Shown here: positions 31,719-55,555 of the stretch, piece after piece
Layout: the number at the start of each line of letters is the position of its first letter
Position numbering within the stretch: position 1 is the first letter of the stretch
Origin: Ectothiorhodospiraceae bacterium WFHF3C12
Lineage (GTDB): Bacteria; Pseudomonadota; Gammaproteobacteria; Nitrococcales; Nitrococcaceae
Direction: 5' to 3'
DNA: 64,000 bases
Assembly: GCA_013519935.1 (NCBI GenBank)
Contig: JACDUA010000013.1
Span: forward strand, 1 to 64,000
The notes under the pieces: model-generated
Told to the model about the DNA's origin: nothing
The model's database searches: none
Seen by the model: the letters and a program-made list of their open reading frames with translations, nothing else
Position numbers and translations under genes: made by a program

Positions 31719-32093
31719 ATGACGGAATCACTCTACGAGCGATTGGGTGGTGCATCGAGAATATCACTGATCGTGGATGACGTGGTTACAGCGCACATGC
31801 AGAACCCGACGATCAATGCCCGTTTCCTGCCCTACGAGGACAAGCCCGAAACGGTCCGGGAGGTGAAACAGCACATGTGCAATTTTCTGGGCGCGGGCAC
31901 GGGCGGGCCTGAGACCTACGCCGGGCGCAGCATGCCGGACACGCATCGTGGCATGGATATCAGTGACGCCGAGTACGACGCGGCGGTCGATGACATCATG
32001 GCGACGTTGCAGAGTCACGGCATCGACGAAGCGACCCGCGGCGACGTCAAGGCGATCACCGACTCGCTGAAGGCGGAGATCGTGCATATCTGA
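31719..32093 (+). CDS. Group I truncated haemoglobin
   Basis: A 124-residue haem protein, probably for oxygen or nitric oxide chemistry. It has the trHbN layout: SLYERLGGASRISLIVDD at the start, then the E-helix region, TGGPETYAGRSM, and DTHRGMDIS with the proximal His76. GGAGGA precedes the ATG. The usual distal Tyr and Gln region is less clear (VKQHMCNFLGAG), with His52 as a possible distal residue. The HxlR-type regulator is divergent from it. Confidence 0.9.
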   Translation: MTESLYERLGGASRISLIVDDVVTAHMQNPTINARFLPYEDKPETVREVKQHMCNFLGAGTGGPETYAGRSMPDTHRGMDISDAEYDAAVDDIMATLQSHGIDEATRGDVKAITDSLKAEIVHI

Positions 32094-46000: not shown

Positions 46001-48679
<2,679 letters not shown>

Positions 48680-48682
<3 letters not shown>

Positions 48683-51233: not shown

Positions 51234-52007
51234 TCACCAGTATCCGGTCAAGCCAACGACCAGTCCCCCGGCTACCAGCCCGGCGCCGGTTACCCGGCCG
51301 ACCAGCTCGGGCCTGGGGAGCAGCTTCTCCGCCAGGAAATACAGCGTCAGCGCCGCCATCCAGGCCAGGCTCATGATCCCGCCGACGAACATCAGCAGCA
51401 TCAGCGCCCAGCAGCAGCCCGTACAGAACGCGCCGTGGCGGACGCCCATGACCAGGGCACCGTACGTGCCGTCGCGCCATTCGGTCATGAGGAAGCTCAG
51501 CGGCGTGCGGCAACGGGTCATGCACGCCTCCTTGAGCCCGCTGAACTGGAACGCGCCGGCGGTGACCAGCAGGCCGCCGGCCAGCAGCGGGCCGACCTTG
51601 CCCATGGCGGAGCTCAGCAGCGCGCTCTGGTGCAGTCCCCACTGCGCGACGGCGGCCAGAACCCCGAAGCCGACCCAGACGCCCAGATAGCCCGCCACGA
51701 AGACCCACGTGGGAACCGTAGTGCCGCCATGGGCGTCCCGCTGCTGGCGGACCCGGGCGTAGGTGAGGATCATCGGGCTGGCGCTGGGGAGCATCATGGC
51801 CACCATCATGACCGCCCACATCGCGGCGCTGGCCATCAGCATGTCGAGGCCCCAGCCGGTGGCGCCGGGGATGGCCATGGAGCCGTCCATGCCACCGCCC
51901 GGCGCCGGGACGAGGAGATACCCCCAGGCCAGCACCGTGATGCCGACGAGCGCGGCGCCGGTCAACGCCCGCTCGCGGGCGTGCATCGTTTGCATAGTCG
52001 CTGCCAT
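51234..52007 (-). CDS. DUF2182 predicted metal-binding membrane protein
   Basis: The 257-residue protein has six helices. The family features are MWAVMMVAMMLPSASPMI, then LKEACMTRCRTPLSFLM with two Cys, and HGAFCTGCCWALMLLMFV with a Cys-x-x-Cys-Cys. The Met-rich and Cys-rich stretches suggest binding of a soft metal such as copper, but this is unproven. GGAGGC precedes the ATG. It is 14 bases downstream of the DUF1326 gene, and the two families are commonly adjacent. Confidence 0.88.
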   Translation of the reverse strand: MAATMQTMHARERALTGAALVGITVLAWGYLLVPAPGGGMDGSMAIPGATGWGLDMLMASAAMWAVMMVAMMLPSASPMILTYARVRQQRDAHGGTTVPTWVFVAGYLGVWVGFGVLAAVAQWGLHQSALLSSAMGKVGPLLAGGLLVTAGAFQFSGLKEACMTRCRTPLSFLMTEWRDGTYGALVMGVRHGAFCTGCCWALMLLMFVGGIMSLAWMAALTLYFLAEKLLPRPELVGRVTGAGLVAGGLVVGLTGYW

Positions 52008-52021
52008 GATGCTGCCTCCGA

Positions 52022-52627
52022 TCAGGGCCCGGCGTAGCTGAACGGCGAATAGAACGCGGTGCGCTCGCTGAGGTCCAGGTCGATACCGTGGGCCTGGTGG
52101 CGCAGGGCGCTCGAAGACGCCACCACCAGGGTCTGCCCGGGCGCCACCGCGAACGGATGTTTTTCGATGGTCACCGCCTCGCCGCCCTGACCTTCGACGG
52201 CGTGCACCTGCGCTTCCGCGGACTGTCCGAGCTTGAGATGGCGCCGGCCGTCTTCGACCTGGAACTCGATGGGCATGGATTCCACGCCGCGGACCTCGCC
52301 GATCATCGATGCGAGCATGGCCGGGTGGCCGCCGGCCTCTCCACCGAATATGGCACCCAGCGCCTCCTGCTGGGCCTGGTCGGCTTTCCCGTCCAGATAC
52401 AGAACCGCTTTCCAGTTGCCCTCCGCCATGTGGCCGGGGGCGTTCAACGCCACCGCCACGTTGAGCCCGTCCAGCGCCACGTCGCCGTAACGCCCCGATT
52501 TGATGTGCCAGCCCACCAGCGCGGTGCAGTCACCTTCTGTGGGTGAACCCAGGTAAACGCAGGGGCAGGCCCCGTGGCAGCTGCAGCTCTCCAGATACTC
52601 CCCGTTAATGCTCCATTCCGTGCTCAT
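52022..52627 (-). CDS. DUF1326 protein with CxCxxxCxC motif
   Basis: A 201-residue soluble protein. The N-terminus has the family motif LESCSCHGACPC with Cys15, Cys17, Cys21 and Cys23, a likely metal or redox site. Further features: LVGWHIKSGRYGDVALDGLN and GKADQAQQEALGAIFGGEAG. It ends in a beta-rich domain. AGAGGAGA precedes the ATG. The first gene of an operon with DUF2182; its divergent promoter region holds an OmpR-type repeat (52714-52732) shared with the STAND-type regulator. Confidence 0.88.
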   Translation of the reverse strand: MSTEWSINGEYLESCSCHGACPCVYLGSPTEGDCTALVGWHIKSGRYGDVALDGLNVAVALNAPGHMAEGNWKAVLYLDGKADQAQQEALGAIFGGEAGGHPAMLASMIGEVRGVESMPIEFQVEDGRRHLKLGQSAEAQVHAVEGQGGEAVTIEKHPFAVAPGQTLVVASSSALRHQAHGIDLDLSERTAFYSPFSYAGP

Positions 52628-52713
52628 GGTCGTTCTCCTCTGTTGTCGCCTGAGCAGGTGCGTCTCTCCCGTACAGGTATAGCCGCCCGCCGTCCCGCGG
52701 GCGTGACGCGGGC

Positions 52714-52732
52714 ATGAGAATATGATGAGAAT
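52714..52732 (+). promoter_or_regulatory. Tandem 11-bp-period repeat, candidate operator A
   Basis: ATGAGAAT at 52714-52721 and again at 52725-52732: two exact 8-base half-sites spaced 11 bases start to start, one helical turn. This is the site type bound by OmpR-family winged helices. It lies between the DUF1326 operon and the regulator gene, about 86 bases from each start codon. A related pair is at 54788-54806. Confidence 0.55.
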
Positions 52733-52817
52733 TAGCCGCTTGGGCCGGGGTGCCAGGCCCCGGGATGCTGCAGGACCGGCCCCGAGCGCCTATGCTGAAC
52801 GCTCAGGGAGGGGTGCC

Positions 52818-54773
52818 ATGGCGCAGAGGATGTCGGATCTGTTGGCCAGCCAGGCGCTGGAGGGCTTCGTGGGCCGCGCCGCCGAGCTGGAAATGCTGCG
52901 GGCGACGCTGTCGCCCGACGGGCCGCGCGTCGTACATGTACACGGCATTGCCGGCATCGGCAAGACGGCGCTGCTGGAGCGGTTTGCCGCGGAGGCCCGA
53001 AGCGCCGGCGCCACCGTGATCCGGCTGGACTGCCGCGACGTCGAGCCCACCGAGCCCGGGTTGCTCCAGTCCCTGGGCGAGGCGGTGGGCGGCGGCCGCT
53101 CCGGTGCCGAGGCGCTGGCGACGCGTCTGGGCGATCTCGGCAGCACGGTCGTGCTGGCCCTGGACACCTACGAGGTCTTCCGCCTGCTGGATACCTGGCT
53201 GCGCCAGGTATTCCTGCCCATGCTGCCGGAGAACGTCCGCGTCCTGTTCTTCGGGCGGCAGCGGCCGCTTACCGCCTGGCACGCCACCCCGGGCTGGGGC
53301 CGCCTGCTGAAGTCGCTCGCCGTGGAGCCGCTGACCGATTCGGAGGCCGGCGAGCTATTGGCGAAGCTGGGCGTGGACGGGGAAGAGGCCGCGCCGGTCA
53401 GGCGCTCCACCCACGGCCATCCGCTGGCATTGATGCTTGCCGCCGGAGCGGTGCGCGAAGAGCGCCGGGAGCACTGGCCGGAGGACGCGCCGCTGCAGCA
53501 CGCACTGGACGAGCTCACCCGCATGTTCCTGGCGGACGTCGGCGATCCTGTCACCCGGCGCGTGATCGAGGGCGCGGCGGTGACGCGCCGGGTGACGGTA
53601 TCGCTGTTGCGCGCGCTGTTTCCGGATCTCGCGCCCCAGGATGCCTTCGAGCGTCTTCGCCGGTTGCCGTTCGTCGATGGTACCAGCGACGGGTTGATCA
53701 TCCATGACGCCGTGCGCGAGGCCATAGCGCGGTCCCTGCGTGCCAGCGACCCTAGCCGCCATCTCGAGTATCGGCGCGCGGCCTGGCACCGGCTGACCGC
53801 CGAGGCGGGGGCCGCGGGCAGCATCGACCTATGGCGCTACACGGCGGACATGCTCTACCTCATCGAGAATCCGGTGGTCCGCGAAGCCTTCTTCCCCAGC
53901 GGCACACCCCGGCTGCCGGTGGAACGGGCCCATCCGGGTGACGAGGACGCCCTGACCGCGATCATCCACGGCGCCGAGGGCGGCGAAGCGGCCAGGGTTC
54001 TGCTGCAGTGGTGGCGCCGCATGCCGCAGGCGTTTTCCGTGGTGCGCTCGCCGGAGGGGCGTGTCATTGGCCTGTGCTGCAAGTTGCGCTCGGACCGGGT
54101 GGAGCCGACCTGGCTGCTGGACGACCCGGTGACCGCCCAGTGGTACGAGCACCTGCGGCGCAGGCCCATGGCCCGCAACGAGGTTGCCCTGTTCTGCCGG
54201 CGGTGGCTGAGCGAGGCGGAGGGCGACTCGCCCAGCGAGGTCCAGGCGGCCGTCTGGCTCGATCTCAAGCGCACCTACATGGAGTTGCGGCCGGATGTGC
54301 GGCGGGTGTACCTGGTGGCCCACGATCTGCCCGCCTACGCCTCGGTGGCCCAGCGCCTGGGCTTCGAGGTGCTGGCGGAACGCCAGGTCACGCTGGACGG
54401 CCGCGACTACCACAGCGCCGTTCTGGACTTCGGGCCGTCCTCCGTGGACGGCTGGCTGGCGGAGATCGCGGCGGCGGAGCTTGGCGTCCAGCACGCCCCG
54501 TCACTGTTGGACGTCGAGGCCCGCGAGCTGGCGCTGGAGGGCGGCCGGGTTCCTTTGACGCCCCTGGAGTTCGGCGTCATGCACCACCTGCAGGCCCGGG
54601 AGGACAAGGCCGTCTCGCGCAGCGACCTGCTGCGTGATGTCTGGGGCACCACCTATGAGGGCGGGAGCAACGTAGTGGACGCCGTGGTGCGCACGCTGCG
54701 GCGCAAGCTCGGCGATCAGGCGGACCGGGTGGAGACGGTGACCGGCGTGGGCTACAGGTTGCGGTCGCGTTAA
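52818..54773 (+). CDS. STAND-type ATPase with GNAT-like region and OmpR-type winged helix
   Basis: The 651-residue regulator has three parts. The N-terminal NTPase has the Walker A GIAGIGKT (43-50), a Walker B-like VVLALDTYEVF, and FFGRQRPL and HGHPLALMLAAG motifs typical of STAND signal ATPases. The middle (about 395-545) resembles a GNAT acetyltransferase, with VIGLCCKLRSD and VRRVYLVAHDLPAYASVAQR then LGFEVL. The C-terminus (about 565-651) is an OmpR-like winged helix: LTPLEFGVMHHLQAREDKAV, GGSNVVDAVVRTLRRKLG, and VTGVGYRLRSR. GGGAGGGG precedes the ATG. It probably senses a ligand, switches with ATP and activates the DUF1326 operon and the 54902 gene. STAND activators with a wHTH at the end are unusual; most place it at the start. 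Confidence 0.85.
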   Translation: MAQRMSDLLASQALEGFVGRAAELEMLRATLSPDGPRVVHVHGIAGIGKTALLERFAAEARSAGATVIRLDCRDVEPTEPGLLQSLGEAVGGGRSGAEALATRLGDLGSTVVLALDTYEVFRLLDTWLRQVFLPMLPENVRVLFFGRQRPLTAWHATPGWGRLLKSLAVEPLTDSEAGELLAKLGVDGEEAAPVRRSTHGHPLALMLAAGAVREERREHWPEDAPLQHALDELTRMFLADVGDPVTRRVIEGAAVTRRVTVSLLRALFPDLAPQDAFERLRRLPFVDGTSDGLIIHDAVREAIARSLRASDPSRHLEYRRAAWHRLTAEAGAAGSIDLWRYTADMLYLIENPVVREAFFPSGTPRLPVERAHPGDEDALTAIIHGAEGGEAARVLLQWWRRMPQAFSVVRSPEGRVIGLCCKLRSDRVEPTWLLDDPVTAQWYEHLRRRPMARNEVALFCRRWLSEAEGDSPSEVQAAVWLDLKRTYMELRPDVRRVYLVAHDLPAYASVAQRLGFEVLAERQVTLDGRDYHSAVLDFGPSSVDGWLAEIAAAELGVQHAPSLLDVEARELALEGGRVPLTPLEFGVMHHLQAREDKAVSRSDLLRDVWGTTYEGGSNVVDAVVRTLRRKLGDQADRVETVTGVGYRLRSR

Positions 54774-54787
54774 CGCCCCGGCTCGGA

Positions 54788-54806
54788 ATCCTCACGAATT
54801 TCTCAT
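54788..54806 (-). promoter_or_regulatory. Tandem 11-bp-period repeat, candidate operator B
   Basis: On the minus strand ATGAGAAA (54799-54806) and GTGAGGAT (54788-54795) are spaced 11 bases start to start. They match operator A (ATGAGAAT twice at the same period) at 13 of 16 half-site positions. The site lies 15 bases after the stop of the regulator gene and about 100 bases before the secreted-protein gene, where an activator would sit. Confidence 0.5.
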
Positions 54807-54901
54807 TCCCCTATCACGCCGCGTGCAGGCACCGGCGATACAAATGGAGCTACGCCGGATCGGGTCCGGCGGACATGTATCGACTGATAGGGAGAGCAGC
54901 C

Positions 54902-55555
54902 ATGAGTATATCCCGAGGAAGGTTCCACGTTGGCGGCGGTGCGCCGGGGGGATGCGGCTTCGTGCAACCCAGCCAGGTCCAATGGACGCTGTTGCTCACG
55001 GCGTTTGCCGGATTTCTTCTCGCAGGCCCCGCCCTGGGCGCCGGTGAGGACGGCGGGGCCACGACGGAGAGCGCCCTGATCGAGGAGGCGCTCAGCGCGG
55101 CTCCGCCCCAGGTGGCGGAGACGGCGACGGTTGTCGATCTCGAGGGGAACGTGCTGCGCGAGGGCAGCGGCGAGTATACCTGCCTGCCGGCGCCGCCCGG
55201 GTTCGGCGGGCCCATGTGTCACGACCAGCAGTTCATGGCCTGGATGCAAGCCTTCATGAACGGTGAACCGGCGCCGCCCACCACGGCCATTGGCACCTCC
55301 TACATGCTGGCCGGGGACTCGCCGGACGGTGGCGCCAGCAACATCGACCCGCAGGCCCGGACGCCCACCGCGGACAATCAGTGGGTGGTGGAAGGACCTC
55401 ACGTCATGGTCATCTCGCCGGATCCGGCCATGCTGAAAGGCCTGCCCACCACGCCGAGCGCCGACGGGCCGTACGTCATGTGGCCGGATTCCCCTTACGC
55501 GCACATCATGTGGCCCGTGGCGGAGCGCCCCGCGCAACGCCCGGTGGTGGATTGA
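54902..55555 (+). CDS. Secreted protein of unknown function
   Basis: The 217-residue protein starts at ATG 54902, after GGGAGAG, and has a long signal sequence (WTLLLTAFAGFLLAGPALGA). The mature part contains YTCLPAPPGFGGPMCHDQQF with two Cys likely to form a disulfide, MAWMQAFMNGE, SYMLAGDSPDGGASNIDP, GPHVMVISPDP and PYVMWPDSPYAHIMWPV. This combination (CHD..W, SYML-GD-SN-DP, GPH-M, YAHIM-PV) is a conserved pattern I recall from hypothetical exported proteins in many bacteria. Methionine and histidine are frequent, which would fit a metal-related role. Likely in the regulon of the STAND regulator. Confidence 0.75.
   Translation: MSISRGRFHVGGGAPGGCGFVQPSQVQWTLLLTAFAGFLLAGPALGAGEDGGATTESALIEEALSAAPPQVAETATVVDLEGNVLREGSGEYTCLPAPPGFGGPMCHDQQFMAWMQAFMNGEPAPPTTAIGTSYMLAGDSPDGGASNIDPQARTPTADNQWVVEGPHVMVISPDPAMLKGLPTTPSADGPYVMWPDSPYAHIMWPVAERPAQRPVVD

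Follow-up and report, generated by a model that had tools for sequence, protein, structure and literature searches.

STAND proteins are known above all for their part in immunity. Regulators of this class are described as passing from an ADP-bound closed form to an ATP-bound open form and then oligomerising (PMC4381067, PMC10427625), and oligomerisation of MalT as stabilising its C-terminal DNA-binding part (PMC10427625). AfsR binds 11-bp direct repeats over the -35 region, the first 8 bp being contacted and the last 3 not (PMC10936776). PpoB2 of Marinomonas is a copper chaperone that transfers copper to tyrosinase, and copper transfer is shown for this member of the family only (PMC2855505). 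Here we describe a locus of Ectothiorhodospiraceae bacterium WFHF3C12 in which a STAND-type regulator gene stands divergently beside a PpoB2-family gene pair, with direct repeats between them. The window, meaning the whole stretch analysed, comprises positions 1-64,000 of contig JACDUA010000013.1 from a host genome of 4.6 Mb. Our preferred reading, to which we give a probability of about 0.72, is that, in certain marine and halophilic bacteria, a STAND-class one-component activator runs a small copper-handling regulon through a triplet operator, copper being passed to an exported enzyme. Judged by its sequence, the regulator would be of the kind represented by STAND activators such as MalT and AfsR; a description of this particular make-up was not found in the literature, as a first-pass annotation of the locus had supposed.

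The regulator gene is divergent from a DUF1326-PpoB2 operon, and an exported-protein gene lies downstream on the regulator's own strand:

51234-52007, minus strand: membrane protein of the PpoB2 family (PF09948, the former DUF2182), 257 aa, a candidate carrier of copper (Pfam E=4e-68)
52022-52627, minus strand: DUF1326 (PF07040) protein, 201 aa, with CxCxxxCPC (Pfam E=3e-54)
52818-54773, plus strand: STAND-GNAT-winged helix regulator (P0001), 651 aa (Pfam hidden Markov models (HMMs), alignment, predicted structure)
54902-55555, plus strand: exported protein P0004, 217 aa, family unassigned (homologues aligned; signal peptide by eye)

The genes, domains and repeats reported by the first-pass annotation were all found where it had placed them. 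It had described a pair of half-sites with an 11-bp period in each of two upstream regions (52714-52732, plus strand; 54788-54806, minus strand). Both pairs are present, and each is followed 11 bp further out by a third, weaker repeat, so the sites are triplets rather than pairs: three 8-bp repeats at an 11-bp period (8+3 bp), captured by the pattern RTGAN7RTGARRAWN3RTGARRAW. Direct repeats of about 11-bp period near the -35 region are the design of OmpR/PhoB-type operators, and binding by the regulator is predicted. The operators and associated promoter elements are:

52703-52732, plus strand: operator 1, GTGACGCG GGC ATGAGAAT ATG ATGAGAAT (0 mismatches to the pattern; conserved in 18/18 orthologous gaps)
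54788-54817, minus strand: operator 2, GTGATAGG GGA ATGAGAAA TTC GTGAGGAT, in front of the gene for the exported protein (0 mismatches)
52676-52681, minus strand: TATACC, putative -10 box serving the DUF1326-PpoB2 operon; 21 nt separate it from operator 1
52791-52796, plus strand: TATGCT, putative -10 box serving the regulator gene (by eye, not scored)
54839-54844, plus strand: TACAAA, putative -10 box serving the exported-protein gene; 21 nt separate it from operator 2 (same distance in locus L026)

Operators 1 and 2 are the only sites in the 64-kb window at up to 2 mismatches, and the host genome holds exactly three sites, the third on another contig. The distance from the operator end to a TATA-like hexamer is exactly 21 nt in 17/18 DUF1326 promoters of the relatives described below: 9/10 of the first ten, and 8/8 of the later Marinobacter loci, where the distance runs from the last repeat to TATAAC or TATAGT. 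In L029 the hexamer (TATAAA) is shifted by 1 nt. The proximal repeat extends over the position where a -35 element is expected; the promoters have a -10 box and, at the right distance, no recognisable TTGACA. CTATGCT, CTATGAT or CTATAAT was seen by eye near the regulator start in several orthologous gaps, the putative -10 box implying that the regulator may be autoregulated from the shared gap.

Besides the window, nine full-length relatives were identified initially: in Saccharospirillum salsuginis, Salinisphaera halophila, a Halomonas metagenome-assembled genome, two Marinobacter, two Vreelandella, and two members of the host order (G004 and G035). With the window these make ten, at 50-85% identity, and eight Marinobacter loci fetched after the motif had been defined bring the relatives covering the whole protein to 18. 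DUF1326 and PpoB2 genes lie immediately upstream on the opposite strand in 18/18, and the repeats are present in the DUF1326/regulator gap in 18/18. The pattern was defined on part of these data; the independent cases are the eight later loci, which have DUF1326, PpoB2 and a perfect triplet in 8/8, together with the haemoglobin and tyrosinase sites described below. When each of the 18 orthologous gaps was subjected to dinucleotide shuffling, the observed match was reached in 0/300 shuffles, and in 232 kb of loci searched at up to 2 mismatches there were 14 sites, all in target promoters. The motif was found in 0/12 DUF1326 loci from relatives in which no regulator is adjacent. The regulator family itself is sporadic (1/369 genomes drawn across the class, E<1e-40; 10/124 Marinobacter genomes). 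Within Marinobacter a perfect site occurs in 10/10 genomes with the regulator versus 1/114 without it (Fisher p = 6.7e-14), two of the ten having helped to define the motif. From these data we conclude that the operator is conserved and is linked to the regulator. The first-pass annotation had named loss of the gene set or motif in related genomes as the observation that would speak against a single regulon; DUF1326, PpoB2 and the motif are instead kept throughout, including the eight loci found later. The regulon is thereby supported and also widened, with a truncated haemoglobin as a further target and, in a single species, a tyrosinase. The exported family, which had been placed in the gene set as well, falls outside the conserved core and, among loci with long flanks, was found beside the regulator at 3 only.

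Two of the eight later Marinobacter loci have a broken regulator frame, split between two frames in G476 (L161/L162) and interrupted by one in-frame TAG in G523 (L160); operator and targets are present in both. In Marinobacter G436 (L163 1474-1833) an orphan open reading frame of 119 aa matches the regulator only at its winged-helix end (72%) and adjoins a c-type-cytochrome-like gene; it may be a remnant or a free-standing DNA-binding domain.

The regulator protein is divided as follows:

52866-53807, plus strand: ATPase region of STAND/NOD type, residues ~17-330 (GIAGIGKT as Walker A, LALDTYE as Walker B, HGHPLAL; AAA_16 E=8.6e-10)
53919-54437, plus strand: GNAT-like domain, residues ~368-540, probable sensor (predicted structure, Foldseek)
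54507-54764, plus strand: OmpR-type winged helix, residues ~564-649 (Trans_reg_C E=6.3e-19; GlnR-DNA 8hml Z=15.2, root-mean-square deviation 1.7)

This ATPase switch, GNAT-like region and C-terminal OmpR-type domain had all been read from the letters, and HMM matches (AAA_16, Trans_reg_C) and predicted-structure folds agree with them, for the GNAT part at moderate model confidence. The HMM spans are residues 17-89 for AAA_16/STAND and 577-648 for Trans_reg_C (PF00486), the latter at 68 bits against a cut-off of 26. GIAGIGKT, LALDTYE and HGHPLAL are conserved in an alignment of 10 orthologues and identify a STAND NTPase fold. An AlphaFold2 model built from 10 sequences (mean predicted local distance difference test (pLDDT) 73) was compared with solved structures by VIA-align 2; its STAND core matched MalT (8bob_C, Z 25.1 over 317 residues) and Apaf-1 (Z 22.9). 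In the same model the strand and helix order of residues ~368-540 is that of a GNAT, and Foldseek matched the domain to acetyltransferase 8wmb (probability 1.00, TM(target) 0.46). That acetyltransferase match is not among the 50 VIA-align 2 matches listed, which the STAND part fills, and the domain searched alone gave no Pfam match. The canonical R/QxxGxG/A acetyl-coenzyme A (CoA) loop is absent from 10/10 aligned orthologues, as read from the alignment. Because this loop of active GNATs is missing, the domain is probably a sensor and not an enzyme. Pfam searches of the regulator found no receiver domain, and with an NTPase in its place the protein is not a two-component response regulator. 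They also found no BTA domain; with its winged helix at the C-terminus, the protein is not a SARP of the AfsR type. Nor is it of the MalT/LAL type, since Trans_reg_C was found in place of a C-terminal LuxR (GerE) helix-turn-helix (HTH).

Whole-genome scans for the triplet were carried out in ten regulator-bearing genomes. Single-mismatch matches inside coding sequence, in a dxs-like gene (G000, G422), a phosphoesterase gene (G424) and dnaN (G424), were set aside. Sites with 0-1 mismatch otherwise occurred only before DUF1326 (in each genome), the exported-protein gene (3), a truncated haemoglobin gene (2), and, in Saccharospirillum, genes for an exported protein and then a tyrosinase (PF00264, 2.6e-39). 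Of the loci examined with long flanks, only three (the window, L026 and L029) have the exported-protein family next to the regulator, and in the latter two it is also preceded by an operator (L026 7084-7113; L029 11985, 1 mismatch). The Saccharospirillum tyrosinase occupies the slot of P0004 in the window, behind the same operator. The truncated haemoglobin (PF01152) is preceded by a site in the host genome (C96:24324-24353) and in G035, where the protein is 85% identical; less similar haemoglobins (48-53%) have no motif. The window contains a second truncated haemoglobin (31719-32087, plus strand), 52% identical to the operator-bearing one and likewise without the motif. A triplet with 2 mismatches at G421:C46:57589-57618 (L073, L141) precedes a gene for a CxxCH-type secreted, cytochrome-like protein beside a molybdenum-hydroxylase-like gene and is a possible extra target. 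Cation P-type ATPase genes lie near two regulator loci, at 46001-48682 in the window (~4 kb away) and, in Marinobacter guineae, closely downstream of the regulator (L028 12561-15275); neither is preceded by an operator.

The annotation had suggested handling of a metal or a reactive thiol species, and PpoB2 narrows the metal to copper (PMC2855505). The PpoB2 domain (PF09948) scores 229 bits against a cut-off of 28.7, and its Met-rich helix and the Cys residues of LKxxCxxxCRxP and CxxCCW are conserved across 11 relatives. In DUF1326, C15, C17, C21, C23 and C34 are invariant in 9 sequences, so that CxCxxxCxC is kept. P0004 has conserved C94, C106, H167 and H201 and a signal peptide ending ...GPALGA (by eye). 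It had been called Met/His-rich; it is moderately Met-containing (10 M in 217 aa) and Pro-rich, but with 4 H not notably His-rich. No Pfam or NCBIfam match was found for it, and for P0002 and P0004 the PDB gave sequence matches at chance level only. A literature search returned nothing for DUF1326, DUF2182, PF07040 or COG5588, and only PMC2855505 for COG5486. We infer delivery of copper to an exported enzyme because the PpoB2 Cys motifs and DUF1326 CxCxxxCxC are kept, because the Saccharospirillum tyrosinase lies behind the same operator, and because of the Marinomonas PpoB2 precedent. Copper would thus be the cargo of DUF1326 and PpoB2, and P0004 is a possible client or accessory, the best candidate in the host genome.

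A second DUF1326-PpoB2 pair in the host genome (G000:C103:65810-66340, L120) is divergent from a gene for a TPR-repeat protein and has no operator. In five loci of host relatives (L111, L112, L113, L115, L118) the pair is preceded on the same strand by an alpha/beta-hydrolase-LuxR (GerE) HTH fusion, a second recurrent regulator.

In the mechanism that we propose, the ATPase core of the resting regulator would hold ADP and keep the winged helix out of reach. When the GNAT-like domain reads a signal, the protein would shift to its ATP form and oligomerise, placing winged helices side by side on the three 8+3 bp repeats. These lie over the -35 region, at 21 nt from the -10 box. The bound regulator would recruit RNA polymerase in all species to the divergent operon of DUF1326 and PpoB2, with further targets that vary by species: the gene for the exported protein, those for an exported protein and tyrosinase, or that for the truncated haemoglobin. 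DUF1326, through its Cys cluster, and PpoB2, a Met/Cys-rich membrane protein, would then hand Cu(I) on to a copper enzyme that is exported. Of the two signs of control, activation is the more likely, since the operator shares the 8+3 design of AfsR and the promoters have a -10 box but no good -35.

Several observations weigh against this reading. P0004 has no known fold and its structure model is poor (pLDDT 42), the truncated haemoglobin is a haem protein and not a copper client, and the GNAT part of the regulator model has moderate confidence with a shallow alignment behind it. Tyrosinase was considered as a general client and rejected, being found in only 1/18 regulator genomes. The Cys/Met-rich products could instead belong to a response to excess copper or other metal, in which the regulator would sense the toxic metal or its damage, the products would store or remove Cu(I), and P0004 and the haemoglobin would be protective; a Microvirga DUF1326-DUF2182 pair does lie close to a CusA/CzcA heavy-metal efflux gene. 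We consider this unlikely, as the regulator has no obvious metal-site motif, a tyrosinase shares the operator, and the published role of PpoB2 is delivery, as a chaperone specific to tyrosinase (PMC2855505). The signal might instead be a volatile thiol, phenol/quinone or similar compound, the GNAT-like domain binding its CoA or acyl derivative and the chaperones serving a copper enzyme, encoded elsewhere in the genome, that oxidises thiols or phenols. On Marinovum algicola plasmid pMaD9 (L096) DUF2182-DUF1326 lies in a dimethylsulfoniopropionate-demethylation cluster with dmdA, next to SBP56, of the copper-dependent methanethiol oxidase family (PMC5739008), and formaldehyde-type GFA proteins occur near some loci. 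Yet the Marinovum pair is distantly related and under a different regulator, neither SBP56 nor dmdA was seen to adjoin any regulator locus, and the published chaperone gene adjoining mtoX is SCO1/SenC, not PpoB2 (PMC5739008), which makes such a reactive sulfur or carbonyl response quite improbable.

The overlap of the proximal repeat with the -35 position would also suit a repressor that blocks polymerase until a ligand releases it, geometry alone giving no sign. We think this decidedly improbable: a -10 box lacking a recognisable TTGACA is typical of activated promoters, and the nearest kinds, MalT and AfsR, activate. That the repeats arose by chance or are a general promoter feature independent of the regulator deserves next to no credence; one regulator-free Marinobacter genome (G473) has a perfect match, but the shuffles, the confinement of sites to target promoters, the Marinobacter comparison and the 12 motif-free DUF1326 loci all argue otherwise. 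The preferred reading of a copper-delivery activator can be carried further, to a STAND (NLR-like) class of sensor-activators in which a catalytically dead acetyltransferase fold reads a CoA-type or acyl metabolite and drives an exported-copper-enzyme programme, the P0004 family being a copper protein interchangeable with tyrosinase; this extension is doubtful.

The regulon is specified for testing by its regulator, operator, promoter spacing and 1-3 targets per genome. It gives a context to families without a known role (DUF1326, P0004) and places PpoB2, a published but little-studied copper chaperone, under a predicted STAND switch. A bacterial STAND protein this compact, in which a GNAT-like sensor is paired with an operator of the AfsR kind, would offer a simple model of the way in which a small molecule is read into transcription.

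MalT, the maltose activator of E. coli (STAND/LAL), is the closest solved fold to the regulator's STAND core (8bob) and has the same order of NTPase, sensor and C-terminal DNA-binding domain. MalT, however, has a helical-repeat sensor and a LuxR HTH where this protein has a GNAT-like domain and an OmpR-type winged helix, and it controls maltose genes, whereas copper-chaperone genes are the predicted targets here. With AfsR and other large SARPs of Streptomyces it shares the combination of an OmpR-type DNA-binding domain with a NOD/STAND ATPase, as well as 11-bp direct repeats (8+3 bp) overlapping the -35 region (PMC10936776). It differs in being proteobacterial, with a C-terminal DNA-binding domain, a GNAT-like domain and no BTA, whereas in AfsR the DNA-binding domain is N-terminal and followed by BTA; three repeats lie 21 nt from the -10 box, versus 8 bp for AfsR. 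Uncharacterised STAND-GNAT 'ATP-binding proteins' of Rhodococcus, Streptomyces, Nostoc and G049 are homologous over residues ~1-556 (25-30% identity) but end in an HTH-like C-terminus (..AA..L.LPFSTYRRHL..) in place of the winged helix, and no DUF1326 or PpoB2 lies beside the four loci examined. Because these homologues share residues 1-556 and end differently, the OmpR-type end is apparently the outcome of domain replacement, an instance of domain swapping in which the same STAND-GNAT core carries a different C-terminus in actinobacteria and cyanobacteria. The PpoB operon of Marinomonas mediterranea (tyrosinase PpoB1 and chaperone PpoB2) resembles this system in its PpoB2 family, and in Saccharospirillum a tyrosinase belongs to the same predicted regulon; most regulator genomes, however, lack tyrosinase, and the available text of PMC2855505 reports no STAND regulator or DUF1326 for that operon. 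The DUF1326-PpoB2 pairs beside other regulators, five with the hydrolase-LuxR fusion and one near the TPR protein, are the same two-gene cassette under different regulator families and without the triple operator, which fits a copper cassette with exchangeable regulators.

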